From: Mycolicibacterium mengxianglii | Lineage (GTDB): Bacteria > Actinomycetota > Actinomycetes > Mycobacteriales > Mycobacteriaceae | Length of the DNA: 64,000 nucleotides | Direction of reading: 5' to 3' | NCBI RefSeq assembly: GCF_015710575.1 | Contig: NZ_CP065373.1 | Coordinates: forward strand, 992,001-1,056,000 | Shown: in pieces, positions 22,838-43,484 of the stretch | Position numbering within the stretch: position 1 is the first letter of the stretch | How the letters are laid out: every line of letters starts with the position of its first letter | Position numbers and translations under genes: made by a program | Notes under the pieces: model-generated | What the model saw: only the letters and a program-made list of their open reading frames with translations | Told to the model about the DNA's origin: nothing | The model's database searches: none

Positions 22838-23554
22838 ATGTCCGAACAGAAACCGTCACGTGGGCTGACCGGCGCACTGGTCAAGCTGTGGCGCGGCGGT
22901 GACTATGAACTGACCGTCACGGGCCGCACCCAGATCACAGCGCATTACCTCCGGTTGCATTTCACCTCCGGCGACCTGCTCAAAGAGCGCTCGGTCCATC
23001 CGACGATGTGGGTTCGCGGCTGGTTTCCCGACGGCGACAAGTCTCACCAGCGGGGGTACACGCTGGTCAATCCGGACCCGGTGGCAGGCACCGTCGATAT
23101 CGACTTCGCGATGCACGAAGGGTTGGCGACGCGCTGGGCGCAGCAGGCGCGCCCTGGCGACGTGCTGGAAGTGACCGTGCTCGGCAGCAGCTTCGAATTG
23201 CCCACACCCGCCCCGGCCGGGTACGTGATCGTCGGCGATACCGCGTCGTTGCCGGCGATCAACTCGCTGCTGGAGGCCATCGGGGACACGCCGGCCAAAG
23301 TGTTCCTCGAGGCCGGCCACGATGATGACCGCGAGTTGCCCGTATACGGCGACGTGCCCGTCACCTGGGTTGACCGTAAGAACGCCGGTGAGGCGCTGGT
23401 CGAGGCCGTCCGTTCGTCGGCGTTCGACGCCGCCGACCATTTCGGCTGGGTCGCCTGCGACAACCGCACCACCCGCAATGTCACCAAGGTGCTCCGCGAG
23501 CAGTTCTCCATCCCGAAGAAGTCACTCAAGGCCCTGGCGTACTGGCAGGTCTGA
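22838..23554 (+). CDS. Siderophore-interacting-protein-type FAD-dependent reductase
   Basis: A 238-residue cytoplasmic flavoprotein of the SIP/ViuB family, whose members reduce ferric-siderophore complexes with NAD(P)H or related donors. The FAD-binding motif RGYTLVNPDP is visible at about residue 70, followed by the DFAMHEGLATRWA block typical of SIPs and the C-terminal NAD-binding half (IVGDTASLPAI). The C-terminal LREQFSIPKKSLKALAYW is also family-typical. It stands alone between deaD-acyltransferase and the CYP130 cluster. Iron regulation would be expected but no clear iron box was found. Confidence 0.85.
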   Translation: MSEQKPSRGLTGALVKLWRGGDYELTVTGRTQITAHYLRLHFTSGDLLKERSVHPTMWVRGWFPDGDKSHQRGYTLVNPDPVAGTVDIDFAMHEGLATRWAQQARPGDVLEVTVLGSSFELPTPAPAGYVIVGDTASLPAINSLLEAIGDTPAKVFLEAGHDDDRELPVYGDVPVTWVDRKNAGEALVEAVRSSAFDAADHFGWVACDNRTTRNVTKVLREQFSIPKKSLKALAYWQV

Positions 23555-27280: not shown

Positions 27281-28510
27281 CTAGGCCTCCGGAGCGCGGT
27301 CCAATTCGCGCAGTGACGGCATCACCACGGCGACCCCGGCGACCAGCAGCATCGGCAGCGACAGCGCCAGGAAAGTCGCCTGCAGCCCGGCGGCATCGGC
27401 AAGCGGCCCGGCGACGATCAGCCCCAGCGGACCCGCCGCATAGGCCAGCGACCCCATCACGCCGACCACCCGGCCCCGCAGATGCTGCGGCGCACGCGTC
27501 TGCATGACGTAGTTGTAGATCGGTGCGATCGGTCCGTACACCAGCCCCACGACCGCACACAGGACCAGGATCAGCGGCAACGGCGGCAGGAATGCGATGA
27601 CGGTCATCGCCACGCCGAGGGTCAGCAGGGCGGTCACCATGATGGCGCGCTTGCTCGAGTATTTCGACAGCACGGCGTAGCCCAGCGCGCCGACCAACCC
27701 GCCCACCGACAGCGCCATCAGCACCCAGCCGAGGTGGGCCGGCTCGTTGCGGTCGGTGAAGTACTTCGGGAACAGCACGCTTTCCATCGGTATGTACAGC
27801 CCGGTCACGGTGAGGTCGATGAACGCCAGGCCGCGCAGCACCTTGTTGTGCCAGACGAACTTGAGCCCTTCGGCGATACCCGCCCAGACCTGCGCGGGGA
27901 GCTGGTCGCGCTCAGGTGTGCCGGTTCCTTCCAGGCGCAGCACCGAGATCGCGGCGATGGACAAGGCGAACGCCCCGGCCGTCACCCACATGGTGTTGAT
28001 CCCGCCGATGGCGGCGATCAGCAGGCCACCGATCCCGGGGCCGACGATGTAGGCCAGGTTGAAAACGGCTTCGTAGACGCTGTTGGCGTGATCCAGTGTC
28101 CAGCCCGCGCGGGTGGCGGCCTCCGGGAGCATCGTTTCGCGTGCGGTCATGCCGGCCGGGTCGAAAAACGCACCGAGGGCGGCGAGCACCGCCAGCACCG
28201 CGACGTTGACGGCCTCGACGCCGAGGGTCAGGGCCAGCACCGGCACGGCGAGGACGGACAGTGCGGACAACGCGTCGGAGATCATCGACACCCGGCGTCG
28301 GCCCAGGTAGTCGACCGCGGCACCGGCGATCAGCGTGGCGATCAGCAGCGGCAGCGTGCCTGCCATGGCCACGATCGAGGCGTCCACAGCCGACCCGGTG
28401 CGCTGCAGCACCAGCCAGGGAAAGGCCACCATCGAAATGCCGTTGCCGGCGCCCGCCATCAACGCAGCGAACAGGATGGTGAACACCGGTCCGCGCTCGT
28501 TGATGGCCAT
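27281..28510 (-). CDS. tap: MFS efflux pump Tap (Rv1258c-like)
   Basis: A 409-residue inner-membrane exporter of the MFS DHA3-like group. Orthologues give low-level tetracycline and aminoglycoside resistance and belong to the WhiB7 regulon. Segment 1 opens with VFTILFAALMAGAGNGISMV; the first cytoplasmic loop has DYLGRRRVSMISD; and FFDPAGMTARETMLPE is characteristic of this MFS_3 group. The ATG at 28510 lies close to a WhiB7-type promoter. It sits divergent from udgB. Confidence 0.9.
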   Translation of the reverse strand: MAINERGPVFTILFAALMAGAGNGISMVAFPWLVLQRTGSAVDASIVAMAGTLPLLIATLIAGAAVDYLGRRRVSMISDALSALSVLAVPVLALTLGVEAVNVAVLAVLAALGAFFDPAGMTARETMLPEAATRAGWTLDHANSVYEAVFNLAYIVGPGIGGLLIAAIGGINTMWVTAGAFALSIAAISVLRLEGTGTPERDQLPAQVWAGIAEGLKFVWHNKVLRGLAFIDLTVTGLYIPMESVLFPKYFTDRNEPAHLGWVLMALSVGGLVGALGYAVLSKYSSKRAIMVTALLTLGVAMTVIAFLPPLPLILVLCAVVGLVYGPIAPIYNYVMQTRAPQHLRGRVVGVMGSLAYAAGPLGLIVAGPLADAAGLQATFLALSLPMLLVAGVAVVMPSLRELDRAPEA

Positions 28511-29384: not shown

Positions 29385-29548
29385 GGGACGGGCTGTGCTC
29401 TCCGGTGTTGAATGAAAGCTGTTGTTTCACAATGTGATCCGATGATCTGGGCCTCGGCGTGAGCCGGCGGGCTGGCATTTTGAATACAGGTGCTCTATGG
29501 TCGACTGACCCCAAGTTAGGTTAGGCGATCCTTATCCACCTTGAGAAA
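29385..29548. other. 164-bp intergenic region before the iron-regulated importer
   Basis: The only recognisable element is the iron box at 29516-29534. The DNA here is visibly more AT-rich than the flanking genes, consistent with a regulated promoter. No good -10 was assigned; the TAGGTT within the box could serve. Confidence 0.4.
29516..29534. promoter_or_regulatory. IdeR/DtxR iron-box candidate upstream of the importer operon
   Basis: TTAGGTTAGGCGATCCTTA matches the mycobacterial IdeR consensus TWAGGTWAGSCTWACCTWA at 17 of 19 positions. It ends 14 bp before the ATG of the binding-protein gene, a position where a bound repressor would block transcription. Confidence 0.75.
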
Positions 29549-31198
29549 ATGAGATCTCGATTGACGGGTAGTTCCCGGCGTTCCCGTGTCGCGCCCCTGG
29601 TTGTTGCCACGGCACTGCTGGCGGCCGCGTGTGGTTCCACCGACTCCACCGCATCCGGTCCGGCCACCGCCGACACGCTCACCATCGCGGTGTCCAAAGA
29701 CAGCGGCCCCCTCAATATCTTTGCCGGGCAGACGGATCAGATGACCGAGCTGATCTACGACAAGCTCCTCGCGCCGTCGCCGTATGTGGCCGAACCGCAG
29801 CCGTGGCTGGCCACCGACGTCCGTCAGGTCGACGCGACCACCTGGGACGTCGACCTGCGTGATGACGTGACCTGGCACGACGGTGAAGCCTTCACCGCGG
29901 ACGACGTGGTGTTCAGCTTCCACTTCATGCACGCCGCACCCACCGGCCGCTTCACCCACCACGTCAACGACACCCCGTCCATCTCGACGATCGAGGCCAC
30001 CAGCGAAACGTCGGTGCGCTTCGTCTGCGACTACGCCTGTCCCGAACTGGGCACCGTCACCCTCGCCGACCTGCCGGTCCTGCCCGAACACGTGTGGTCG
30101 AAGGTCGATCCTGCCGACGCCAGGGAATGGACGGAACTCCCCGTCGGCACCGGGCCGTTCAAGCTCGTCGACTACAGCCCCACCAGTGGATACCGCTTCG
30201 AGGCCAACACCGACTACTTCGCAGGCGCCCCGACCGTCGGGGAACTGGTGATGCCGGTGATCCCCGACTCGTCGGCCGCTTTCACTGCGCTGCGTTCCGG
30301 TCAGATCGACGCCGCCGACCGTGCGCTCACCCCCGAGCTCGTCGACCAGTTCACCGCGTCGAAGGACATCGGCGTCATCACCGTCTCGCCGCTGTCGTAT
30401 CCGGAGGTCAAACTCAACTACACCCGAGAACCGTTCGCTCAGCACGACTTCCGGGCCGCGCTGAACTTGGCGGTCGACCGCGACCAGATGCTCGACGTCG
30501 TGGCACTCGGCCAGGGCAGGGCCGCCACGCAGGGCTATACCCACCCGGACGCACCGTTCGCCGCCCCGGACGCCGCAACGCCCTACGATCCGCAGCGGGC
30601 CGAGGCATTGCTCGATCAGCTCGGCTGGATCGACGCAGATGGCGACGGCACGCGGGAGAACCCGAGAGGTGCGAGCGCACCGTTCACCCTGGTTGTCGAC
30701 GGTGGTAACGCCCCCCACGTGCGTGCCGCCGAGCTATTGGTCGAGGACTTTGCCGAAGTGGGTATCGCGGTCGAGATCAAAACGCTGGACGCCGGCTCGC
30801 TGACCGACGCCTCGGCGAACATGGACTACGACCTGTACATCACAACGAATTCGCCGCACGCGGTGGCTGATTCGACGCAGTTCATCATGTCGCACCGGTC
30901 CGGCAATCTGTGGCGGCACCCCGAGATCGCCTACCCGGAGTTCGACGCCCTCTACGACAAGTGGAAGGCAACCGAGACCACCGATTCGCGCATCGCGGCC
31001 ATGCAGGAGATGCAGGGACTGTTCAACCGGCAGCCGACTGCCATCGCGTTGTACTACCCCGATGAGCACTGGGGCTACCGCGCCGACACGTTCGCCGGCT
31101 GGATCGAAACCCCCGGCTACGGCATCGTGCACAAGTGGTCGTTCCTGCCCGCGGAGGTGGTCGACGAGGCCAACGCGGAAGCGCCGCAGGACGAATGA
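29549..31198 (+). CDS. Peptide/metal-type ABC transporter solute-binding lipoprotein (SBP family 5)
   Basis: A 549-residue exported lipoprotein with an n-region RLTGSSRRSR and lipobox LAAC. It is a DppA/OppA/NikA-type binding protein: the LTIAVSKDSGPLN first strand, MTELIYDKLL, and the VTWHDGEAFTADDVVFSF signature are clear. Family members bind peptides, nickel, haem or metallophores, and sequence alone does not tell which. An iron box 14 bp upstream argues for an iron-related ligand (inference). The ribosome site is weak. The stop overlaps the next start as ATGA. It leads a five-gene operon. Confidence 0.88.
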   Translation: MRSRLTGSSRRSRVAPLVVATALLAAACGSTDSTASGPATADTLTIAVSKDSGPLNIFAGQTDQMTELIYDKLLAPSPYVAEPQPWLATDVRQVDATTWDVDLRDDVTWHDGEAFTADDVVFSFHFMHAAPTGRFTHHVNDTPSISTIEATSETSVRFVCDYACPELGTVTLADLPVLPEHVWSKVDPADAREWTELPVGTGPFKLVDYSPTSGYRFEANTDYFAGAPTVGELVMPVIPDSSAAFTALRSGQIDAADRALTPELVDQFTASKDIGVITVSPLSYPEVKLNYTREPFAQHDFRAALNLAVDRDQMLDVVALGQGRAATQGYTHPDAPFAAPDAATPYDPQRAEALLDQLGWIDADGDGTRENPRGASAPFTLVVDGGNAPHVRAAELLVEDFAEVGIAVEIKTLDAGSLTDASANMDYDLYITTNSPHAVADSTQFIMSHRSGNLWRHPEIAYPEFDALYDKWKATETTDSRIAAMQEMQGLFNRQPTAIALYYPDEHWGYRADTFAGWIETPGYGIVHKWSFLPAEVVDEANAEAPQDE

Positions 31199-32175
31199 CA
31201 CACGTGCGTCGGGCCGGACAGTACGCGCTGGTGTTGTGGGCGGCGGTGACGCTGAACTTCGCGCTGCCGCACCTGGCACCCGGCGATCCGGTGGTCTACC
31301 TGTACGGGGGCGCCGACCAGTCGCTGGACCCGGTGTCGTTGGCCCAGATCCGGGCCGGTTATGGATTGGACCGGCCCATCCTGGAGCAGTACGCCTCGTT
31401 CTGGTCGGGTCTGGCCCGCGGCGACCTCGGAATGTCCGTGCAGTACAACCGACCCGTCGCCGAGGTGCTGTGGGACAAGCTGCCCTGGACCCTCGCATTG
31501 GTCGGTATCGCCACGCTGCTGGCGTTCGTCATCGGAACACTGATCGGCGCATGGGCGGCGTGGCGGCGCGGCACCGCCAAGGAAACCGGCTCCGTGGTGG
31601 CCGTTCTGACATTGGATTCCATGCCGGGCTTCTGGATCGGCATGATCCTCATCGCGATCTTCTCGGTGGGCCTGGGCTGGTTCCCGTCGTATGGCGCGGC
31701 GAGCATCACCGCCGCCGGGGGTGACTGGCTCGTCGAAGTCGCCTCCCGCATGGTCCTTCCCGTAGCGACGTTGACCATCGCCGGCGTCGGGGCGTTCTTC
31801 TTGATGACCCGCGCCTCGATGATCGGGGTGCTCGACGAGCCGTACGTCCGACTGGCCCGCGCGAAGGGACTCGGCGAGTTCCGGGTCGCGCTTTTCCATG
31901 CCCTGCGCAACGCGATGCTGCCGGTTTACACCACCCTGAGCCTCACCGTCGGTGCCCTGCTGTCCGGTGCCGTCGTCGTCGAATCGGTCTTCGCTTACCC
32001 CGGTCTGGGAAAGCTCATCTACGACGCGGTCACCGCGCGCGACTATCCGTTGCTCCAAGGGGCATTCCTGCTGGCGACGCTCGGCATCGTCGCGGCGAAC
32101 CTGCTGGCCGACCTGACCTATCCGCTGCTCGATCCGCGGGTTCGACGGGAGAAAACACCGCGGGTGTCGACGTGA
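31195..32175 (+). CDS. ABC transporter permease, DppB/OppB type
   Basis: A 326-residue inner-membrane permease. An N-terminal segment (YALVLWAAVTLNFALPHLAP) is followed by the DppB-family GDPVVYLYGG loop. The EAA loop appears as RLARAKGLGEFRVALFHALRN and the C-terminus has VVVESVFAYPGLGKLIYDA. The ATG at 31195 overlaps the binding-protein stop (ATGA) and the stop overlaps the next start (GTGA), showing tight coupling. Confidence 0.9.
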   Translation: MTHVRRAGQYALVLWAAVTLNFALPHLAPGDPVVYLYGGADQSLDPVSLAQIRAGYGLDRPILEQYASFWSGLARGDLGMSVQYNRPVAEVLWDKLPWTLALVGIATLLAFVIGTLIGAWAAWRRGTAKETGSVVAVLTLDSMPGFWIGMILIAIFSVGLGWFPSYGAASITAAGGDWLVEVASRMVLPVATLTIAGVGAFFLMTRASMIGVLDEPYVRLARAKGLGEFRVALFHALRNAMLPVYTTLSLTVGALLSGAVVVESVFAYPGLGKLIYDAVTARDYPLLQGAFLLATLGIVAANLLADLTYPLLDPRVRREKTPRVST

Positions 32176-33851
32176 CACACCTGCGCGGCAACACCCGCTC
32201 CCGACGTATGGCGGCCGTCGGCGCAGCGACGCTGGGCGTGCTGCTGATCGCGGCGGTGGCCGCGCCATGGCTGGCGCCCTACGACCCCACCGAACGTGTC
32301 ACCAGACCTTTCGCTGCCCCGTCGGCGGCGCACTGGCTCGGCGCCGACGACGTGGGCCACGACCTGCTGTCGATGCTCATCCACGGGGTTCGCATCTCGC
32401 TGATGATCGGCGTCGTCGCCGCCGTTGCCGCCACCACGATCGGCACTCTGGTCGGTGTTGTTGCCGGGTACGCGCGCGGTGCGATCGACACGGTGTTGAT
32501 GCGCATTGTCGATGTGGTGCTGGCACTTCCGGTGTTGCCGCTGACCATCGTGATCGGCGTCTTCGCCGGTCCCGGCCTGCGCACCCAGGTGATGGTCATC
32601 GCGGCTGTGCTGTGGGCGGGGATGGCGCGCGAGTTGCGCGCCCAGGTGCTCAGCCTGCGGGAACGCGATTACATCCAGGCCGAGCGGGCAATGGGCGCCG
32701 GATCGCTCTATGTACTGCGCCGACACATCGTGCCGGCGGTGGTTCCGTTGGTGATCCCGCAGTTCGTGCTCACCATCAAGACGGCGATCCTGCTCGAGGC
32801 GTCCCTGGCGTTCCTGGGCCTCGGCGACATCTCCGCCGCCAGTTGGGGGTCCATGCTGTCAATGGCGCACGCGCGCAACGCTTTCCTCACTGATGCGTGG
32901 TTGTGGTGGGTGTTGCCGCCCGGCCTCGCCATCGCCGTCACAGTGCTGGCGTTCGCCCTGCTGGGCAATGCGATCGAAGACCGGTCCCGCCCCATTCTGC
33001 GCACGCCCCGCCGTGGCGGCATCCGCGTCGCCAACCAACCGGACGCGCCGGTGGCCGCAGATCCGCTGGTTGTCGACGGACTCACGGTGGTGTACGGCGA
33101 GGACGGTCGCGGTGTCAACGAGGTCGGCTTCAGCGTCGCCGCCGGGGAACTCGTCGGGCTGGTCGGAGAATCGGGCAGCGGTAAGTCCACCGTCGCCGGC
33201 GCGGCGATGGGGCTGCTCCCGGCCGCGGCGCGGGTGACCGCCGGTCGTGTCCTGGTCTCCGGGCGTGACGTGGCGACAATGTCGGCAAGGGAATTGCGGG
33301 CGTTGCGAGGTAACCGGATCTCGCTGATTCCCCAGGAGGCGCTCAGCGCGCTCAATCCCGTCCGCACCATCGGATCTCAGCTCGAGGAAGCGATCCGGGC
33401 GCACCAATCGCGGAGCCGTGAGGCCACCCGGTCCCGCACCGTCGAGTTGTTGGGGCAGGTGGACCTGGCACCTGAGGTGGCGGACGCGTACCCGCACCAA
33501 CTTTCCGGTGGGATGCGCCAGCGGGTGGTCATCGCGATGGCCCTGGCCAACGAACCGGACGTGCTGATCGCCGACGAACCCACCAGCGGGCTCGACGTAC
33601 TCCGGGAAGCCGAAGTGCTGGCACTGCTTCACGAGTTGCGCACCCGGCACTGCCTGGCGCTGCTGATCGTGACCCACAACCTGCCGGTCATCGAACGGAT
33701 CGCCGACCGCATCGCGGTCATGAAAGACGGGGCGCTGGTGGAGATCGGCCCCGCCGCACAGATCATCGGCGCGCCGCAGCATCCCTATACCCGTCGACTC
33801 GTGGAGTCGGCTCCCCGCCTCGCGCCCGCGCTGCTGGATGCCCGAGGGTGA
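32172..33851 (+). CDS. ABC transporter permease-ATPase fusion (DppC-DppD type)
   Basis: A 559-residue protein joining two subunits. Residues 1 to about 280 are a DppC-type permease: DVGHDLLSMLIHGVRISL early on and EAA loop AERAMGAGSLYVLRRHIVP. After a short linker, residues from about 298 form an oligopeptide-type ATPase with Walker A GESGSGKST (about 331), signature LSGGMRQRV and Walker B VLIADEP. Such fusions occur in actinobacterial Dpp-like systems but are not the usual arrangement. Start and stop each overlap neighbours by 4 bp (GTGA). Confidence 0.9.
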   Translation: MTHLRGNTRSRRMAAVGAATLGVLLIAAVAAPWLAPYDPTERVTRPFAAPSAAHWLGADDVGHDLLSMLIHGVRISLMIGVVAAVAATTIGTLVGVVAGYARGAIDTVLMRIVDVVLALPVLPLTIVIGVFAGPGLRTQVMVIAAVLWAGMARELRAQVLSLRERDYIQAERAMGAGSLYVLRRHIVPAVVPLVIPQFVLTIKTAILLEASLAFLGLGDISAASWGSMLSMAHARNAFLTDAWLWWVLPPGLAIAVTVLAFALLGNAIEDRSRPILRTPRRGGIRVANQPDAPVAADPLVVDGLTVVYGEDGRGVNEVGFSVAAGELVGLVGESGSGKSTVAGAAMGLLPAAARVTAGRVLVSGRDVATMSARELRALRGNRISLIPQEALSALNPVRTIGSQLEEAIRAHQSRSREATRSRTVELLGQVDLAPEVADAYPHQLSGGMRQRVVIAMALANEPDVLIADEPTSGLDVLREAEVLALLHELRTRHCLALLIVTHNLPVIERIADRIAVMKDGALVEIGPAAQIIGAPQHPYTRRLVESAPRLAPALLDARG

Positions 33852-34615
33852 GCGTGCTACTGGAAATCGACTCGCTCACTGTCGAATTCAACGGGGTTCC
33901 GGCTGTTACCGACGTGTCGCTGCAGGTGTCCGCCGGAGACACCGTGGCACTGGTGGGCGGGTCAGGCGCCGGGAAGTCCACCGTCGCACGGGCGGTTGCC
34001 GGCCTGGTCACCCCGGTCTCGGGCGCCATTCGATTCGGTGGAGTGGACCTGGTCGCGGCGGACCGGCGACGGAGGCGGGAGGCGCGCCGCGGAATGCATC
34101 TGGTGTTCCAGGATCCCTACGCCTCGCTGCCACCGCACCTGCCGGTCAGCGATATCGTGGCCGAGCCGATGGTCATCCACCGCCTCGGTGACACCTCGAG
34201 TCGCCGTGCCGCTGCGGTCGCAGCGTTGACCAGCGTGCACCTGACACCCACTGCTGACTATCTGGACCGGTTCGCCCACGAACTGTCCGGTGGCCAGCGT
34301 CAACGGGTCGCGTTCGCGCGGGCCCTGGTCACCCGGCCGCGGTTGCTGCTGGCCGACGAACCGGCAAGCGGGCTCGACGCCACGTTGCGCATGGAGATCG
34401 TCGACCTGATGACAGAGCTGGCGTCCACCCAGCATCTCGCGGTGGTGCACATCACCCACGACCTCGCGCTCGCCGCGCGCAGCTGCGCGACCATGGTCGT
34501 CATGCAGGACGGTTCGGTGGTCGAAAGTGGGTCTACCGCAGAAATTCTCAGCAACCCCGCGCACCGCTACACCGCCGCGCTGGTAGCGGCCGCATCCGGC
34601 GTCAGCGCACCGTAA
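33848..34615 (+). CDS. ABC transporter ATPase, DppF/OppF type
   Basis: A 255-residue second ATPase of the importer. Walker A is GGSGAGKST at about residues 37-45, the Q loop is LVFQDPYASL, the signature is LSGGQRQRV, Walker B is LLLADEP and the H loop is VVHITHDL. The GTG overlaps the fusion gene stop (GTGA). With the fused ATPase it would form the heterodimeric motor typical of Dpp/Opp importers. Confidence 0.92.
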   Translation: MSVLLEIDSLTVEFNGVPAVTDVSLQVSAGDTVALVGGSGAGKSTVARAVAGLVTPVSGAIRFGGVDLVAADRRRRREARRGMHLVFQDPYASLPPHLPVSDIVAEPMVIHRLGDTSSRRAAAVAALTSVHLTPTADYLDRFAHELSGGQRQRVAFARALVTRPRLLLADEPASGLDATLRMEIVDLMTELASTQHLAVVHITHDLALAARSCATMVVMQDGSVVESGSTAEILSNPAHRYTAALVAAASGVSAP

Positions 34616-34640
34616 ACACATCCAACCCAGGAGAACTGAC

Positions 34641-35150
34641 ATGTCCACAGTGCTCGAGATCACCGACAACGGAACGCTCATCGACTTCACCGTCGAGGAC
34701 GTCATGAAATACCACGGCCCGGGCTTTCCCGGTGGCGTGGCCCACGCCGTGAAGGTGCTCGAACGCGCGCTGCCGGCGCTGAGCCCCGACGCACCGGCCG
34801 AGCGCCGCGAGATCTCCGTGGCCACCGCACATCGGGGACCCGGCGTGCGCGACACGTTCGAGGCCGTCACCCGCGCCGTCACCGACGGCCGTTTCACTGT
34901 GGATTCAGCGCTCGAACGCCCCGACCGCGGTGCGACGCTGGAGCGCTACGTGTTCGAGTTGACCTACCGCGGCACGACGGTGCGCCTGGAGATCCGAGAC
35001 GGCTTCGTCGCCGACGAATTCATCACCCTGGCACGTAAATCGGAGCGCAGCAACGCCGAGGAGGCCCGCCTCACCGACCTCAAACAGGAGATGGCCGACC
35101 GTCTGCTCGCTGCGCCCGCCGACGAGGTGTACGACATCGTCACCCGATGA
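34641..35150 (+). CDS. FmdE-like protein lacking the metal-binding Cys
   Basis: A 169-residue soluble protein with no named family that I can prove. A segment at about residues 23-45 (MKYHGPGFPGGVAHAVKVLE) resembles the FmdE-domain motif HGHxCPGxxxG, but the second His and the Cys are replaced by Pro and Phe. A second block (RDTFEAVTRAVTDG) resembles the FmdE VDAIQVLTGCT region, again without Cys. AGGAGA precedes the ATG at good spacing. It closes the importer operon, so an accessory role in handling the imported ligand is likely (inference). Confidence 0.6.
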   Translation: MSTVLEITDNGTLIDFTVEDVMKYHGPGFPGGVAHAVKVLERALPALSPDAPAERREISVATAHRGPGVRDTFEAVTRAVTDGRFTVDSALERPDRGATLERYVFELTYRGTTVRLEIRDGFVADEFITLARKSERSNAEEARLTDLKQEMADRLLAAPADEVYDIVTR

Positions 35151-35152
35151 CA

Positions 35153-35165
35153 GGGGCAGCGCCCC
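35153..35165. terminator. Small hairpin between convergent operons
   Basis: GGGGC-AGC-GCCCC lies between the stop of the FmdE-like gene (35150) and the stop of the convergent gene (35172). The stem is short (5 bp) and has no T tract, so it is only a weak terminator candidate. Confidence 0.3.
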
Positions 35166-35171
35166 CGCCGG

Positions 35172-35846
35172 TCAGGTCTGGTCGATCCAACGCAGCAGCG
35201 CGTACAGGAACCGGGTGGCTCCGGTCATGAAGTTGCTGCCATGGTGATACATGGGATCCAACGTCGTCACGATGATCCGACCGGGTGTGGTCACGGTGTC
35301 CTCGTACAGCATCATTCCGGCGTCGTGCGGCCTGCCGTCGGCGTCGGGTTCTTCGGAAACCAGCAGCGGCACAACGTCGGCCGCGGTGCGTAACAATCCG
35401 TGGTGGTGCCAGATCACCGACTTGCTGGTCAGGTACTGCCAGGATTCATGCTCGTGGCTGCGGGTGCGGATCATCGGGTCTTCGCCGGTGACCCACCACC
35501 AGAAGTTCGTCGGCCGGCCCTCCCATTCGATGCCCGGCAGCCAGGTGTGCACCGCGTTCTCGCCCAGCACCACCAAGGTGTTGCCACGTTCGGCCACTGC
35601 CCGGAACTGCGCCGCGTGCCGGGCGACGAGTTCGGGGTGGAGTCGGTCGCCGACGATCACCGTGTCGTAGCCGTCGAGTCCGCCGTCGTCGAGGTCGACC
35701 AGATAGACGAAGTCTGGCTGATACGCAAGCACCGCAGGGTCTTTCATGGCGTACAGGTGGGCGTACGAACCACTGTGCACGATGGCGAGCCGACGCCCGC
35801 GCTGGGGCGCGTTGTCGGTGCGGACGAAGGGTTCTACGGCAGTCAT
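35172..35846 (-). CDS. Glutamine-amidotransferase-like protein of unknown function (second of pair)
   Basis: A 224-residue protein with a class I glutamine-amidotransferase-like (flavodoxin-like) pattern: RRLAIVHSG first strand, DGYDTVIVGDRL, and NTLVVLGENA where a nucleophile elbow would sit. No catalytic Cys is present there. Trp/His-rich sequence follows (NFWWWVTGEDP; VIWHHHGLL), and the C-terminal MYHHGSNFMTGATRFLYAL is similar to ThuA-like proteins. The ATG overlaps the upstream gene stop (ATGA). Convergent with the importer operon. The role is unknown; the shared iron box suggests co-function with the importer. Confidence 0.65.
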   Translation of the reverse strand: MTAVEPFVRTDNAPQRGRRLAIVHSGSYAHLYAMKDPAVLAYQPDFVYLVDLDDGGLDGYDTVIVGDRLHPELVARHAAQFRAVAERGNTLVVLGENAVHTWLPGIEWEGRPTNFWWWVTGEDPMIRTRSHEHESWQYLTSKSVIWHHHGLLRTAADVVPLLVSEEPDADGRPHDAGMMLYEDTVTTPGRIIVTTLDPMYHHGSNFMTGATRFLYALLRWIDQT

Positions 35847-36460
35847 CGCTGTACCAGCCAATCGATCAGTTGTGGGGTCATCCGGGCCGCGGTGTTCGGG
35901 GCGTTCTCCCATCCGGTGAGGTCGTTGCCGCCGTGCACCAGCACTTGGCCCGCGCCGAGTGGGTAGATGTAATCCAGTGGCAGTGCGTGCCGGCCGATGC
36001 GCGTGGTGATGATCGCGTCGGCAGGGATCTTGTCGGCGTAGCCGCGTGCGTAGAAACCGGTGACGCCTTTGCGGACGCTGAGATCGACGGGGTCCACGCC
36101 CTCCCAGATCGGGTGGGGTTCGCCGAGGCTGATCGCCAGGTCCTTCGGCCCGGTGTACGCGAGCTTGCGCCACACCCCGAGGCCGGGCAGGAAATCGGTG
36201 ACGGCGTGCCCCATCACCGCGATGTGTCCACCAGCGCGGACGAATTCGGTGAGTAGCTCCCGGTTGCGTTCTAGGAAGATCTGGTCGGCGCCGGCGGCGA
36301 TGATCAGCCCGCGCACACCGGTCAGGTCAGTAGCGGGAAGACGGTAGATGTCGACCTCGCCGAGCCGCGGATCGGACTCGGGCGTCCCGGCCGGGTTGTG
36401 AGAGCCCATCGTGACGTGCAGGGCGGCGGCGATCGTGCCGGGTGTATTCGTTGTCGACAC
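35843..36460 (-). CDS. Glutamine-amidotransferase-like protein of unknown function (first of pair)
   Basis: A 205-residue soluble protein with the same class I amidotransferase-like fold pattern as its downstream partner: LTGVRGLIIAAGADQIFLE, RELLTEFVRAGGHIAVMGHA, and a C-terminal GAGQVLVHGGNDLTGW. The elbow position lacks Cys, so amidotransferase chemistry is unlikely. The GTG at 36460 has AGGAAG about 6 nt upstream. It is preceded by an iron box. Both proteins look non-exported. Function cannot be assigned. Confidence 0.65.
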   Translation of the reverse strand: MSTTNTPGTIAAALHVTMGSHNPAGTPESDPRLGEVDIYRLPATDLTGVRGLIIAAGADQIFLERNRELLTEFVRAGGHIAVMGHAVTDFLPGLGVWRKLAYTGPKDLAISLGEPHPIWEGVDPVDLSVRKGVTGFYARGYADKIPADAIITTRIGRHALPLDYIYPLGAGQVLVHGGNDLTGWENAPNTAARMTPQLIDWLVQR

Positions 36461-36639
36461 GGCTTCTTCCTGGTCCAGGGGCGAAATTGGGGAATGGCCG
36501 CCAGTGGCGGTCCCGCGGGAGGGGCCCTTGTGCTTAGGTGAGCCTAACGTAACCGCTGTGGCGGCGAGCAGGCGCTTCCCGAGCGGCCGAATCGCGCAGA
36601 TCGGGAAGGATGCGGTGGGTTCTGCTGTTGAAGGAAGTT
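36461..36639. other. 179-bp divergent intergenic region with iron box
   Basis: It lies between the amidotransferase-like gene (leftward) and the LLM oxidoreductase gene (rightward). The iron box at 36534-36552 is the only clear element; it is about 75 bp from one start and 88 bp from the other, so either or both could be controlled. Confidence 0.4.
36534..36552. promoter_or_regulatory. IdeR/DtxR iron-box candidate upstream of the amidotransferase-like pair
   Basis: TTAGGTGAGCCTAACGTAA matches the IdeR consensus TWAGGTWAGSCTWACCTWA at 17 of 19 positions. On the minus strand it overlaps a possible -10 (TACGTT). Together with the box at 29516 it brackets the convergent cassette. Confidence 0.75.
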
Positions 36640-37689
36640 ATGCGGCTATCTGTGCTCGATCTCGTCCCTGTCCGCGCCGACCAGACCACCGCCAATGCCC
36701 TGGCCGCCACGGTCCGGCTGGCGCAGACCGCTGACCGGCTGGGTTACACCCGCTACTGGGTGGCGGAGCACCACAACATGCCGGCCGTCGCGGCAACCAG
36801 TCCGCCCGTGGTCCTCGCCTACCTGGCGGGCCAGACGGCCCAGATACGGCTGGGTTCCGGCGGTGTGATGTTGCCCAACCATGCCCCGCTGGCGGTGGCC
36901 GAGCAGTTCGCCCTGCTCGAGGCGGCCGCGCCCGGGCGTATCGATCTCGGCCTCGGCCGGGCTCCTGGCTCAGACCCGGTGACCAGCGTGGCACTGCGAG
37001 GTGCCGCCGGCCGTGACGACTCCGACATCCAGAACTTTCCGCGCTACCTCGACGAGGTGGCGGCCATGATGAGCACCGACGGCGTCCGCGTCGAGTTGCC
37101 CCGGCAGTTGATGCGGCCCGAGTACATCCTCAAGGCCACCCCGGCGGCGGCCAGTGAACCGCGGCTGTGGCTGCTGGGCTCGTCGCTGTACTCAGCGCAT
37201 CTGGCGGCGGCCAAGGGGCTGCCGTATGTGTTCGCCCATCACTTCGCCGATCAGGGTACCGAGGAAGCGCTGGCGGTGTACCGCGAGGAGTTCCAGCCGA
37301 GTGACCTTGCGGCCGAACCGATCACGTTCATGACGGTCAATGCTTCCGTCGCACCCACCCGTGAAGAAGCCGAAGCCCTGCTGTTGCCCCAGCTGGTGAT
37401 GATGGCGACGTTGCGCACCGGGAAGCCCTTGCGGGCACTCGATCTCGTCGAGGACGCGCGGGCGCTGCAGTTCACCGCCCAGGAGAACGCCATCATCGCC
37501 GACGGTCGCGCCCGCGCAGTGGTGGGCGCGCCGGCCGAAGCCGCCGATCAGGTGCGCGAAGTGGCGGAGCACTTCGGCGTCGACGAGGTGATGATCAACC
37601 CCGTGGGGTCGGCGTTCCGCGGTACCGACGCCGCCACCGCGCCGGCCCGGGATACGACCCTGGAACTGCTTGCCAAGGAACTCTTCTAG
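36640..37689 (+). CDS. LLM-class flavin-dependent oxidoreductase
   Basis: A 349-residue luciferase-like monooxygenase of the MsnO8-like group, using FMN or F420. The conserved N-terminus LSVLDLVPVR, YWVAEHHNMP, LGSGGVMLPNHAPLAVAEQF and GRIDLGLGRAPG are all visible. The ATG at 36640 is chosen because it gives the family N-terminus and follows AAGGA; an in-frame ATG 10 codons earlier is less likely. Its stop overlaps the convergent nitroreductase stop by 4 bp. Substrate unknown. Confidence 0.9.
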   Translation: MRLSVLDLVPVRADQTTANALAATVRLAQTADRLGYTRYWVAEHHNMPAVAATSPPVVLAYLAGQTAQIRLGSGGVMLPNHAPLAVAEQFALLEAAAPGRIDLGLGRAPGSDPVTSVALRGAAGRDDSDIQNFPRYLDEVAAMMSTDGVRVELPRQLMRPEYILKATPAAASEPRLWLLGSSLYSAHLAAAKGLPYVFAHHFADQGTEEALAVYREEFQPSDLAAEPITFMTVNASVAPTREEAEALLLPQLVMMATLRTGKPLRALDLVEDARALQFTAQENAIIADGRARAVVGAPAEAADQVREVAEHFGVDEVMINPVGSAFRGTDAATAPARDTTLELLAKELF

Positions 37690-39968: not shown

Positions 39969-40003
39969 ATGGCAGGCATTCAGCCTCAACAAAAGGAGTG
40001 CCC

Positions 40004-41080
40004 GTGCGCAGGCACACACCGACCGGCATACGCCGCGCAGTCACCACGGCGGTGGCGCTGACCGCAACCGCGGTGACGGTCTTCACGTCCGGTTGCGCGG
40101 CGGGTCTCGGCGGACCGCCATCTTCGCGGGAAGCCCGCGAGGGAGAAATCCGCTTCACCTTCGCTCCGGACCCGATCTGGGATCACATGCACGACACCGG
40201 CCTGGTCGAGGAGTGGGAGGACCAGACCGGCTACCGCATCGAGACCAGCGCCACCTGGGATGAGTTCGGTCTCTTCGCCGGGGGACACGCCGACATCATC
40301 TCCACCGCCTCCTTCGAAGTTCCGTATCTCGAAGAGCAGACCCAACGCGAAACCGTGATCATCGGCCGCTACAACGCCGAACGAAGCCGCATCATGGTCC
40401 GCGCCGATGATCCCGCCCAGTCCCTCGAGGACCTGCGAGGCAAAAGAATGGGCGTCTTCACCACGGTGTCCGGCACGCTCGTCTGGAGCGCCCTGGTCAA
40501 ACAGATGCACGATATGAACCTCGTCGATTCCGACGGTACCGACGGCGACTTCCAAGTGGTCGTCGCCGACATCCAGAATCTGTCGAACCTGTTGGCGCGC
40601 GGCGAAATCGACGCCTGCATCTGTTACCCCGACTTGTCCGCCCGCGAACTACGCGACGGCTCGGTGCGCGCCTTGTACGACGGCAAATCCTCGGCGGATC
40701 TGTTCGCCGAACTCAACGCCCCCGGCCACGACGGCCCGATGGGCAACGTCTTCGTGGCGCGCAAGGACTGGGTGGAGGAGCATCCCGACGAAGTGTCGGC
40801 CTTCCTGGACCTGTGGGACCGCGGTCTCGCAGAGTGGCAGGAGCACCGCGACGAGATGATCGAACTCTATCCGCAGCACTTCGCAGTCTCGACGCCCGAA
40901 GACATCGAGTTCATGAAACAGTATGTGGCCGAGCACGACTGGGTTGTCGACGAAGTTCGTTTCGATCAGCAGTGGGCCGACGACGAAAGCTCGATCTTCG
41001 ATCTGATGCGCAGCACCGGGATCATCGGCGACGACATCCCGGATCCGCAGTTCCTGCCGACCGAAGGAGTCCACCAGTGA
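40004..41080 (+). CDS. NitT/TauT-type ABC transporter solute-binding lipoprotein
   Basis: A 358-residue exported lipoprotein with a Tat/Sec-like basic n-region RRHTPTGIRR and lipobox TSGC. The mature part is an NMT1/TauA-type binding protein (GRYNAERSRIMVRADDPAQS; LRGKRMGVF; VFVARKDWVEEHPDEV). Relatives bind small organic acids, sulfonates, nitrate or pyrimidine precursors. The GTG at 40004 is chosen because AAAAGGAG (39991-39998) sits 5 nt upstream; the GTG at 39998 overlaps that site. It leads an operon of tightly spaced genes. Confidence 0.85.
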   Translation: MRRHTPTGIRRAVTTAVALTATAVTVFTSGCAAGLGGPPSSREAREGEIRFTFAPDPIWDHMHDTGLVEEWEDQTGYRIETSATWDEFGLFAGGHADIISTASFEVPYLEEQTQRETVIIGRYNAERSRIMVRADDPAQSLEDLRGKRMGVFTTVSGTLVWSALVKQMHDMNLVDSDGTDGDFQVVVADIQNLSNLLARGEIDACICYPDLSARELRDGSVRALYDGKSSADLFAELNAPGHDGPMGNVFVARKDWVEEHPDEVSAFLDLWDRGLAEWQEHRDEMIELYPQHFAVSTPEDIEFMKQYVAEHDWVVDEVRFDQQWADDESSIFDLMRSTGIIGDDIPDPQFLPTEGVHQ

Positions 41081-41913
41081 CCCAGACGATCGCTCCACCC
41101 AAAGGGGAATCGGAGCAGGGCGATTCGACCTCCCGTCGCGGGCGGTCAGCAGGCCAACCGCGTGGGCCGCGGCGGTGGTTGGTCTCCGGCATCGCGTTGA
41201 TCCTGGCGGTCGCTGCCTGGGCAGCCGCCGCAGCCTGGGTCGACGACCCGATCGTGCCCAAGCCCTACGACGTCTTCGAGCGGGTCATCGCCATCACCGT
41301 CTCCGGTGAGGCGTTCACCAACTTCGCGTCGAGCATCACCAAGATCGTCACCGGGTTCCTGATCGCCATGGTCGGCGGCCTGCTCATCGGATTCGTCATG
41401 GGCCGAAGCAAATTCATGACGTCGTACTTCTCACTACCGCTGTTCGTGCTGGGCAACATGCCGGGTCTGACCTACGCGGTGTTCGGCTTGTTGATCTTCG
41501 GCGTCGGGGCCGGTGGCCCGGTCGTCGTCTCCGCGCTGGTGGCTCTACCGTTCATCGCCATGAACGTCGCCGAGGGCGTGCGTTCGGTCGACGGGAACCT
41601 GCTGGCGATGTGTCACGCGTTCGGGCGCAACCGCCGTGACGTCCTGCGCCACCTGTACCTGCCGGCGTTGGCCACCTTTGTCTTCGCCGGGGTGCGTTAC
41701 GGCTTCGCGATGGCGTGGAAGGTCGAGGCGCTGACCGAGGTATTCGGCGCCAGCGATGGCGTCGGCTTCATGATCCGGAAGTCCTACCAGGAGTTCCAGG
41801 TCGCGGACATGCTCGCGTGGACAACACTTTTCATCATCGCCATGATCCTCATCGAGCGTGGCCTCGCCTACACCGAAACGCGCTTCTTCGCATGGCGGAA
41901 GGATCTCGCATGA
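41077..41913 (+). CDS. NitT/TauT-type ABC transporter permease (first)
   Basis: A 278-residue SsuC/TauC-type permease. A ~40-residue polar N-terminus precedes the first segment (WLVSGIALILAVAAWAAAAA). Family blocks include FASSITKIVTGFLIAMVGG, GNMPGLTYAVFGLLIFG and the EAA-like SVDGNLLAMCHAFGRNRRDV. The GTG overlaps the binding-protein stop (GTGA) and GAAGGAG lies 7 nt upstream. The stop overlaps the next start. Confidence 0.88.
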   Translation: MTQTIAPPKGESEQGDSTSRRGRSAGQPRGPRRWLVSGIALILAVAAWAAAAAWVDDPIVPKPYDVFERVIAITVSGEAFTNFASSITKIVTGFLIAMVGGLLIGFVMGRSKFMTSYFSLPLFVLGNMPGLTYAVFGLLIFGVGAGGPVVVSALVALPFIAMNVAEGVRSVDGNLLAMCHAFGRNRRDVLRHLYLPALATFVFAGVRYGFAMAWKVEALTEVFGASDGVGFMIRKSYQEFQVADMLAWTTLFIIAMILIERGLAYTETRFFAWRKDLA

Positions 41914-42704
41914 CCTCCACGATCATCCCCAAGGTGCCGTCCTGGCAACGCCACCTGAAAACCCAAGGGTCCTCGGCCATCGCCGTCATCGCAGCGCTGC
42001 TGAGCATCCTGGCGGTGTGGCAGATCGCCGTCGTCCTGGGCAACCGGGTGCCTTCACCGGCCCAGACGGTCGATCGCCTGATCTCCGAGGCGGCGATCGG
42101 TGAACTGTGGCACAACTTGGCAATCAGCATGAACCGCTTCGCTCTCGGGCTGGTGTTGGCGCTGGTGGTGGGCGCGGTGATCGGCGTGCTGATGGGCATG
42201 TCGAAGCTGGCTGATCTGGCGTTCTCGGATCTCAACGCCGCGGCACTGGCGATTCCCGCGGTGATCTGGGCGCTGCTGACAACCATGTGGTTCGGCTTCG
42301 GCTGGCTCACCCCGGTGGTGACGGTGTTCCTGTCCGGACTCCCGTTTGTCATCGTCAACATCGCCAAGGCCACCCGTGCGGTACCCGCGGATCTGGTGCT
42401 GATGGCACGGTCCTTCGGGGTGCCGCGAGCGAAGATCCTGCGGCACATCGTGGCGCCCGCCGTCGCCGGTTCCACGGTCGCGGCCGTCCGGTTCGCGATC
42501 ATGAGCGCCTGGAACGGACTGCTGCTGGCGGAGTGGTTCGGTTCCACTTCGGGCGTCGGTTGGCGGTCCCGCTACTGGTATGACGCCAACCAACTCGATG
42601 GCTTCTTCGCCTGGGTGCTGGTCTTCATCCTGCTTCTCGTCGTCGCCGACCTCCTGATCCTCGGCCCGATCGAGCGTTATACGACCCGCTGGCGCTCGGC
42701 CTGA
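41910..42704 (+). CDS. NitT/TauT-type ABC transporter permease (second)
   Basis: A 264-residue permease homologous to its upstream neighbour, so the importer uses a heterodimeric channel. Visible blocks are AIAVIAALLSILAVWQIAVV, WHNLAISMNRFALGLVLALV and VPADLVLMARSFGVPRAKIL (EAA-like), and AVRFAIMSAWNGLLLAEWFG. The ATG overlaps the preceding stop (ATGA), with GGAAGGA upstream. Two non-identical permeases are less usual for TauC-type systems, which are often homodimers. Confidence 0.88.
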   Translation: MTSTIIPKVPSWQRHLKTQGSSAIAVIAALLSILAVWQIAVVLGNRVPSPAQTVDRLISEAAIGELWHNLAISMNRFALGLVLALVVGAVIGVLMGMSKLADLAFSDLNAAALAIPAVIWALLTTMWFGFGWLTPVVTVFLSGLPFVIVNIAKATRAVPADLVLMARSFGVPRAKILRHIVAPAVAGSTVAAVRFAIMSAWNGLLLAEWFGSTSGVGWRSRYWYDANQLDGFFAWVLVFILLLVVADLLILGPIERYTTRWRSA

Positions 42705-42734
42705 CCCCCTTAGCAACGAGAGTGAGATAAACCC

Positions 42735-43484
42735 ATGGGCTCCATTGAAATTCGCGAACTGGTCAAGGACTTCCACGACCGCCGCGGCAACCCCACCCGG
42801 ATCATCGACGGGATCGACCTGACGATCTCGGGCGAGACCTTCGTCTCCGTGGTCGGCCCGTCGGGCAGCGGCAAGACGACGCTGCTCAACATCGTTTCCG
42901 GCATCGAACCCCACACCTCGGGCACGGTGAATCTGCGTTCTGAGGGGCAGGATGCCCGCGTCGGGTATGTGTTCCAGGACGCTCGCCTGCTGCCGTGGCG
43001 CACCGTGATCGACAACCTCGGCTTCGTGCAACACGAGCGGGCCGGCTGGGAGGAGCGCGCGCGGCACTACCTCGATCTGGTGGGCCTGAGCCACTGCGCC
43101 GACCGTTATCCGGCCCAGCTCTCCGGTGGGCAGCAACAGCGCATCGGCATCGCACGGGCGTTTGCCGTCGAACCCGATGTGCTGCTGATGGACGAGCCCT
43201 TCTCGCACCTCGACGCCATGACCTCGCGGACCTTGCGGGAACACCTGGAACGGCTGTGGCTCGAGTCGCGCCGCACCGTCATGTTCGTCACCCATGACGT
43301 CATCGAGGCCGTCCAACTCTCCGACCGCATCGTGGTCCTCGAACCAGGCGGCCGGATCCACGAGATCATCGACGTCGACCTGCCACGCCCCCGCAAGGCC
43401 TCCGATCCGGCAGTCGCGTTGCTGCAGGCGCAAGTGCTGGCCCGGTTCGAAGCGCTCGAAGCACGGCAGGGGGCGGCCGTATGA
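42735..43484 (+). CDS. NitT/TauT-type ABC transporter ATPase
   Basis: A 249-residue SsuB/TauB-type ATPase. Walker A is GPSGSGKTT at about residues 40-48, the Q loop is YVFQDARLLPWRTV (family-typical), the signature is LSGGQQQRI, Walker B is VLLMDEP and the switch is MFVTHDVIEA. It starts 30 bp after the permease and overlaps the amidohydrolase start by 4 bp, placing import and catabolism in one transcript. Confidence 0.93.
   Translation: MGSIEIRELVKDFHDRRGNPTRIIDGIDLTISGETFVSVVGPSGSGKTTLLNIVSGIEPHTSGTVNLRSEGQDARVGYVFQDARLLPWRTVIDNLGFVQHERAGWEERARHYLDLVGLSHCADRYPAQLSGGQQQRIGIARAFAVEPDVLLMDEPFSHLDAMTSRTLREHLERLWLESRRTVMFVTHDVIEAVQLSDRIVVLEPGGRIHEIIDVDLPRPRKASDPAVALLQAQVLARFEALEARQGAAV

Follow-up and report, generated by a model that had tools for sequence, protein, structure and literature searches.

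Predicted IdeR boxes bracket a candidate ferric-chelate importer and its GAT2-GAT1 and FmdE-like accessory proteins in Mycolicibacterium mengxianglii

Gene content and layout of the cassette

The DNA analyzed here, called the window throughout, is a 64-kb stretch (positions 992001-1056000) of the single-contig 5.96-Mb genome of Mycolicibacterium mengxianglii. It holds a seven-gene cassette for an ATP-binding cassette (ABC) importer with its solute-binding protein (SBP), an FmdE-like protein and two proteins with the fold of glutamine amidotransferases (GATases), GAT1 and GAT2, and this cassette is bracketed by two predicted boxes of the IdeR/DtxR type. The features are as follows, in window coordinates.

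29516..29534: predicted IdeR/DtxR-like box 1, TTAGGTTAGGCGATCCTTA, ending 14 nt before the SBP start codon
29549..31198, + strand: SBP, family-5 solute-binding lipoprotein, 549 aa (PF00496, 2.2e-75)
31195..32175, + strand: permease 1, DppB/NikB type (PF00528, 4.7e-36, scored on a longer frame from 31135)
32172..33851, + strand: permease 2-ATPase 1 fusion, OppC/DppC plus DppD type, 559 aa (PF00528, PF00005, PF12911, PF08352)
33848..34615, + strand: ATPase 2, DppF/NikE type, 255 aa (PF00005, 1.5e-30)
34641..35150, + strand: FmdE-fold protein, 169 aa (fold comparison)
35172..35846, - strand: GAT1, class-I-glutamine-amidotransferase/ThuA-like fold without a conserved Cys, 224 aa
35843..36460, - strand: GAT2, paralogue of GAT1, 205 aa
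36534..36552, - strand: predicted IdeR/DtxR-like box 2, TTACGTTAGGCTCACCTAA, 73 nt before GAT2
36640..37689, + strand: MsnO8-type luciferase-like monooxygenase (TIGR03558, 375.9 bits)

The markers of the importer superfamily are complete (PF00496 in the SBP, PF00528 in the permeases and PF00005 in the ATPases) and assign the system to the peptide/nickel (SBP family 5) ABC importers. Within the fusion protein the domains follow the order OppC_N, BPD_transp_1, ABC_tran and oligo_HPY, and the N-terminus of the SBP resembles, by eye, a lipoprotein signal with a lipobox. The closest equivalogs of the SBP are NikA and Opp proteins, every one of them far under its cut-off. An earlier note on this DNA had described a Dpp/Opp/Nik-type importer, an FmdE-like gene and two convergent amidotransferase-like genes; the domain and frame analysis agrees with this content, and the term uptake system used there follows from the importer genes. 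Adjacent reading frames share an ATGA or GTGA four times: three of these junctions lie inside the importer (the start ATG of permease 1 overlaps the SBP stop) and one in GAT2/GAT1, where the start ATG of GAT1 overlaps the GAT2 stop. Because of these overlaps, the importer genes very probably form a single transcript and GAT2-GAT1 another. A sigma-70 promoter scan found no promoter, and terminator-like sites were no more numerous than in shuffled sequence.

Predicted IdeR boxes

Sites of 19 bp were scored against a strict IdeR consensus, TTAGGTTAGGCTAACCTAA, and a degenerate one, TWAGGTWAGSCTWACCTWA. The corynebacterial DtxR consensus given in PMC6701010, TTAGGTTAGGCTAACCTAN, is the same as used here, and that paper, which also mentions a peptide ABC transporter once, takes as regulatory a site with 14 residues in common with a known site. 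The earlier note had claimed a 17/19 match for each box. Box 2 reaches it against both consensuses (two mismatches, - strand), and box 1 against the degenerate consensus (two mismatches) but not against the strict one, where it scores 16/19 (three mismatches). Apart from these two boxes the window has no site at ≤3 strict mismatches, nor any at ≤5, and 100 dinucleotide shuffles of it gave no site at ≤3. In the 200 bp before the SBP and in the 200 bp before GAT2, the observed score was matched by 0/1000 shuffles each.

Genome-wide, the degenerate consensus finds four sites at ≤2 mismatches and seven at ≤3 in 5.96 Mb, while the consensus read backwards finds one at ≤3. The cassette boxes are two of the four sites at ≤2 mismatches. 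The other two lie at 2511554, by an orphan 262-aa gene, and at 5440226, by a DUF2470 gene that has a ferritin gene in its vicinity. The locus at 5440226 resembles rv3839-rv3840 of M. tuberculosis, where rv3839 carries DUF2470 and the locus adjoins bfrB; according to PMC13258150, this pair responds to low iron with IdeR-dependent induction and has a putative upstream IdeR site. By this resemblance the scan recovers an apparent known IdeR target, which serves as a positive control. The scan is insensitive, and boxes of iron genes with more mismatches escape it. Two proteins of the genome score over the cut-off for the iron-dependent-repressor domain PF02742 and are candidate IdeR-type repressors.

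The best IdeR-like box of the genome (one mismatch) precedes the 262-aa gene mentioned above, which has no Pfam match (L086 7555-8394, genome ~2511554). The end of the same gene is overlapped by a three-mismatch box, and a thioesterase gene and, by eye, urease-looking genes follow downstream.

Box 2 sits between GAT2 and the divergent monooxygenase gene (start ~36640), and since the two share this intergenic region its target is ambiguous by position. We favor GAT2 as the putative target because relatives of the cassette have no adjoining monooxygenase gene. The monooxygenase was likewise rejected as a cassette member, as it has no match beside the relatives L006-L024 and L082-L085.

Three further features of the window lie outside the cassette. 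A Tap multidrug efflux-type transporter of the major facilitator superfamily is encoded upstream (27281-28510, - strand; 751.9 bits against an NCBIfam cut-off of 625). A second, unrelated importer cluster at 39998-43484 (+ strand) comprises an NMT1/SsuA-like binding protein and an ABC ATPase, followed by an amidohydrolase gene. A siderophore-interacting protein (PF04954/PF08021) is encoded at 22838-23554 (+ strand), with no box at ≤5 strict mismatches nearby.

Conservation of the cassette and its boxes

A search with the FmdE-like protein, one genome per species, gave 19 loci. All seven genes occur in the same order and orientation in L006-L014 (eight Rhodococcus and Tomitella biformata), at 69-85% identity per gene; in L012 three genes match in two pieces and may be broken or misassembled. 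L082 (genome G206, of the window's genus) also has all seven, at 81-88% identity. In three other loci of the genus (L083-L085, from G277, G220 and G261) the genes for GAT2, GAT1, SBP, permease, fusion and ATPase follow each other on one strand; FmdE immediately precedes them in the same orientation, and between it and GAT2 lies a box with 2-3 mismatches. The cassette is rare within the genus: 7 of 396 genomes gave a match to GAT1, one of these matches (G065) being short and weak, and the G224 locus was left out of the neighborhood comparison. M. smegmatis encodes a protein with 86% identity to GAT1 and another with 83% identity to GAT2.

Box statistics were calculated for 25 regions of 200 bp before SBP and GAT2, taken from 14 cassettes (the window, L006-L014, L082 and L083-L085), eleven in the window's gene order and three rearranged, with the SBP gene internal in L083-L085. 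L127-L132 were taken as duplicates of L006-L008, L010, L011 and L014 and left out. A site at ≤3 mismatches is present in 16 regions and a site at 4-5 in the remaining nine, compared with a mean best of 7.6-8.3 mismatches in shuffled regions; 15 of the 25 scores were matched by 0/1000 shuffles and none by more than 15/1000. The co-occurrence of the seven genes with boxes, which the earlier note had named as a comparative finding that would support its reading, is thus borne out in L006-L014 and L082, with weak boxes in three Rhodococcus.

The survey was extended to related genera (Gordonia, Prescottella, Rhodococcus and other genomes of the window's GTDB family), adding 20 operons that encode FecCD or Nik-type importers. 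Within 300 bp, the best site has ≤5 mismatches in 19 of them and ≤3 in 11, against a background, true sites included, of 101 and 49, respectively, among 5000 random 300-bp windows. The twentieth operon, L136, has TAAGGCAAGCCTTACCTAA, with one mismatch, ~298 nt before its approximate start. All starts in this test are approximate, L019 offered only 45 bp, and the start of L146, which has no SBP match, was guessed.

Chance matches in front of an ordinary peptide importer would also give boxes of a kind, and each cassette box does have two mismatches to the degenerate consensus. Homologous cassettes lacking boxes, which the earlier note had held to speak against iron control, are not found among the 14, all of which have sites at ≤5 mismatches, but one was met outside them: L158 (G607, from another family; SBP-GAT2-GAT1-permease-fusion-ATPase) shows no site with four or fewer mismatches over 17.5 kb. 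Against chance stand the bracketing of the cassette by two of only four such sites in 5.96 Mb, the failure of any of 1000 shuffles to equal either box, and the retention of boxes in relatives with another gene order. We consider chance extremely improbable, and control of the cassette by iron through IdeR is, on these predicted sites, very likely.

Properties of the GAT and FmdE-like proteins

GAT1 and GAT2 are paralogues (hhalign of GAT2 against GAT1: probability 93.6, E 2e-7), and both have the GATase fold. They differ from class-I GATase-like and ThuA-like proteins (3rht, 2gk3, 3soz, 1t0b) in the absence of a conserved Cys: no alignment column has Cys in more than 8 of 99 sequences for GAT1 or 13 of 45 for GAT2. 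The presumed elbow reads G-E-N / G-H, and in place of a conserved Cys there is an invariant set of Trp, His and Asp. A functional amidotransferase was rejected for this reason, and amidotransferase activity is not expected. The missing Cys is a point that the earlier note did not have.

The FmdE-like protein scores 14.5 bits against PF02663, below the gathering cut-off of 22.9, and has the fold of formylmethanofuran dehydrogenase subunit E-like proteins (2glz, 2gvi) at 11-15% identity. Searching PDB sequences yielded no credible match to GAT1, GAT2 or the FmdE-like protein, the TAL-effector matches of the latter being taken as repeat artefacts. No export signal was seen in GAT2-GAT1 or FmdE by eye, no predictor having been run. 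In the annotated plasmid records examined, the GAT and FmdE genes are labelled 'hypothetical protein'.

The GAT2-GAT1 module beside different importers

Within the window's family, 33 of 201 genomes (11 of 31 genera) gave a match to GAT1; across the phylum 3 of 396 genomes did, and so did 30 of 72,556 plasmid records. Gene context was examined for about two thirds of the family matches and half of the plasmid records (15 of 30). The GAT2-GAT1 pair adjoins ABC importer genes in 52 of 52 loci examined (the window, L006-L015, L017-L020, L022-L024, L047, L048, L050, L051, L082-L085, L119-L126, L133-L146, L151-L153 and L158; L016 was taken as a duplicate of L135 and not counted). These loci span Actinomycetota, Pseudomonadota, Bacillota and a haloarchaeon. 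Beyond what the earlier note had described, the accessory proteins thus form a module that keeps company with importers of several kinds.

The importers fall into several types. Nik/Dpp-type importers accompany the pair in the cassettes and in L023, L051, L121, L141-L145 and L158. FecCD-type importers do so in, for example, L015, L017-L020, L022-L024, L047, L048, L050, L120, L122, L123, L125, L126, L133-L140, L146 and L151-L153; here the same GAT2-GAT1(-FmdE) proteins share an operon with siderophore importers of the FecBCD type, whose SBP and permease families (PF01497, PF01032) are unrelated to those of the cassette. In the haloarchaeon Natribaculum (L124) the importer is Fbp-like, with a 605-aa 'iron ABC transporter permease' containing two PF00528 stretches and an SBP_bac_8/6 binding protein, and in Chelatococcus (L119) it is SsuABC-like with an NMT1 binding protein, GAT2 looking shortened in this locus. 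Since the pair accompanies unrelated importer families, the partner of the module would be the cargo or iron, not one transporter protein.

The pair exists as one fused protein in L023, L048, L050, L122, L123, L125, L126 and L152. The fusions occur in either order, which suggests that the two proteins touch each other. FmdE is less constant: 13 of the 52 loci have no FmdE match (L119, L120, L123-L126, L136, L141-L143, L146, L152 and L158), and in some others, such as L015, L019, L024 and L135, it lies several kb from the pair. Two GAT modules stand side by side in L023 (Rhodococcus ARC_M6; Nik-type plus FecCD-type) and in L126 (R. etli; a fused plus an unfused pair), and this adjacency suggests that the copies may serve separate cargoes.

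Some plasmids present an unexpected combination, an iron-type importer joined to carbon-phosphorus (C-P) lyase genes. In L046, L048, L049 and L122 (Rhizobium, Agrobacterium vitis, Proteus and Martelella) importer genes and an FmdE-like gene are directly followed by phnGHIJ and then by ATPase genes. The importer is of the FecCD type where its permease is visible, L049 showing the importer ATPase alone; a GAT fusion is also present in L048 and L122, and the pair is absent from FecBCD-FmdE-phn clusters such as L046. Separately, in other genomes of the window's genus, as in L052 (9429-11717) and L054-L066, an FmdE relative lies near a molybdopterin-oxidoreductase-like gene in 10 of 16 stretches examined, in surroundings that look, by eye, like lexA/dapF/miaA.

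Iron-related surroundings outside Actinomycetota

In Methylosinus (L151), FecBCD-GAT2-GAT1-FmdE lies among three TonB-dependent receptors, a FecR protein and PepSY proteins, and in Methylocystis (L047) the module is surrounded by TonB receptors, HemP and an IucA/IucC family protein. In Paenibacillus (L121), FmdE-GAT2-GAT1 accompanies a Nik-type importer and is preceded by a predicted Fur box, GATATTGATAATCATTATC, which matches at 18/19 and is equalled by 0/500 shuffles.

Haem deserves consideration as the cargo, in which case the importer would act as proposed for mycobacterial Dpp/Opp and GAT2-GAT1 and FmdE would bind or dismantle haem. HemP adjoins the Methylocystis modules, a TonB haemoglobin-type receptor lies ~5 kb from the Chelatococcus GAT pair (L119), the invariant residues of GAT1 are rich in Trp and His, and family-5 haem-binding proteins (3m8u, 3tpa) are among the PDB matches of the SBP, with modest sequence kinship. 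The cassette also shares its superfamily with the haem-linked DppABC and Opp transporters of M. tuberculosis and M. smegmatis, which are mycobacterial and tied to iron nutrition (PMC10553834, available part); the same part of that paper mentions no paired GAT proteins or FmdE. Most examined relatives outside the cassette, however, use FecCD, and three of them (two Methylocystis, one Methylosinus) lie beside siderophore receptors. Moreover, no haem oxygenase is named among the annotated neighbors listed, and the SBP scores higher with NikA/AppA than with HbpA. Haem is accordingly judged unlikely, and because of the FecCD, TonB and IucA/IucC neighbors a siderophore-type cargo is favored over it as the putative substrate.

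Comparison with known transport systems

NikABCDE of the E. coli type is among the best curated relatives and shares with the cassette a family-5 SBP, two permease domains and two ATPases. It differs in that the cassette SBP reaches only 143.5 of 393 bits (TIGR02294), the Nik subunit scores shown being all under cut-off, and in that the cassette adds a permease-ATPase fusion, predicted iron boxes, GAT2-GAT1 and FmdE. CntABCDF, the staphylopine system, resembles the cassette as a Nik/Opp-type importer of a metal chelate, and here too the SBP falls below the CntA cut-off (102.7 of 800 bits, NF047575). A nickel or opine-metallophore importer was rejected by family score, as the equivalog cut-offs were not reached. 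Still, an importer whose cargo is a metallophore of nickel, cobalt or zinc and which is only regulated by iron, as in the case of opine metallophores, would fit the presence of Nik and Cnt proteins among the best curated relatives and the HupE/UreJ gene in L051. Set against this are the wide margin by which the Nik and Cnt cut-offs are missed and the nature of the boxes found, which are DtxR-type plus one Fur-type (Zur and NikR sites were not scanned), and we regard a metallophore as quite improbable.

Among mycobacterial systems, the putative ferric iron ABC transporter MSMEG_3633-3636 contributes to siderophore-independent low-iron fitness in M. smegmatis (PMC6684656, available part). It differs from the cassette as a three-gene ferric-iron system for which the same part of the paper mentions no accessory GAT or FmdE. 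Biofilms of M. smegmatis show upregulation of siderophore and iron ABC genes, and the portion of PMC2170428 consulted on this likewise mentions neither GAT nor FmdE proteins. The consulted text of PMC7174638, a zinc study, and of PMC12003420 gave no link to the M. smegmatis GAT genes. MSMEG_1084-1088 was rejected as the M. smegmatis counterpart, being described in the accessible text of PMC4222082 as a nitrogen-starvation transporter with an amidase-type gene.

Proposed function of the cassette

Taken together, the cassette is, with moderate probability, an IdeR-repressed ferric-chelate importer whose GAT2-GAT1 and FmdE proteins process the chelate or release its iron in the cytosol. When iron is plentiful, Fe-IdeR on both boxes would repress both convergent transcripts, and when iron is scarce both would be made; this step draws on established IdeR biology and the predicted boxes. 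The lipoprotein SBP would then capture a ferric chelate, most likely the siderophore of another microbe or else a different ferric chelate, and the two permease domains and two ATPases would move it into the cytosol. There, GAT2-GAT1, acting as a pair (they are fused elsewhere), and the FmdE-like protein may bind the ligand, degrade it or set the iron free, a role suggested by their constant company with importers. Of the separate parts, a ferric chelate as cargo appears likely, whereas the chances of a cytosolic processing role for GAT2-GAT1 and FmdE are evenly balanced.

Several observations weigh against this proposal. The diversity of the importers, including the SsuABC-like one of L119, and the 13 loci without an FmdE match mean that a single shared substrate is not proven. 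FmdE relatives without the GAT pair occur elsewhere in 20 of 198 genomes of the genus (47-57% identity), and a molybdopterin-oxidoreductase-like gene lies near them in 10 of 16 stretches examined, one of these genes being Pfam-confirmed. Other metals or ligands are possible in view of the C-P lyase genes in FecBCD-FmdE loci on several plasmids, and the HupE/UreJ protein in the Paracoccaceae operon L051 could point the same way. On the regulatory side, the boxes of L007, L008 and L009 are the weakest, with 4-5 mismatches at both promoters, and L158 has none at ≤4. Outside Actinomycetota, only one of 13 regions tested for Fur boxes is clear (L121); none of the other 12, from Proteobacteria, is clear, three being suggestive, with scores equalled by 3, 6 and 8 of 500 shuffles, and nine not even that (27 to 498 of 500), RirA and Irr sites not having been scanned. 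Alphaproteobacteria often use RirA and Irr in place of Fur.

Part of this evidence would suit an importer that feeds on a carbon, sulphur or phosphorus compound, with iron control secondary and the GAT and FmdE proteins as catabolic enzymes: the C-P lyase genes beside FecBCD-FmdE, the SsuABC-type importer of L119 and the molybdopterin-oxidoreductase-like genes near other FmdE relatives. Such a role is hard to reconcile with iron boxes at both promoters across genera and an 18/19 Fur box in another phylum, and we hold it to be very unlikely, on a par with the metallophore.

Significance

The importer itself is of a known kind; it stands apart by its predicted control by iron and, to a greater degree, by the GAT2-GAT1(-FmdE) module that recurs elsewhere. 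No description of this module was found in the searches made of open-licence papers, which is consistent with the earlier note having called the system uncharacterised. More tentatively, and with some doubt, GAT2-GAT1 with FmdE as an optional third member may represent an undescribed cytosolic unit for processing iron chelates, Cys-less and probably metal-binding, that was recruited separately by Nik/Dpp, FecCD and Fbp-like importers in bacteria and haloarchaea. IdeR/DtxR would then control the unit in mycobacteria, rhodococci and their relatives, and Fur would do so in at least one of the Bacillota.

A few reductases and hydrolases are known to free iron from chelates after import. If the proposed function is true, the occurrence of the GAT pair with unrelated importer families under two kinds of regulator would make it a common, so far unannotated cytosolic step. 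The cassette offers a concrete set of genes and boxes for testing, and it adds to mycobactin, exochelin and haem a further candidate route by which mycobacteria and rhodococci could take up iron.

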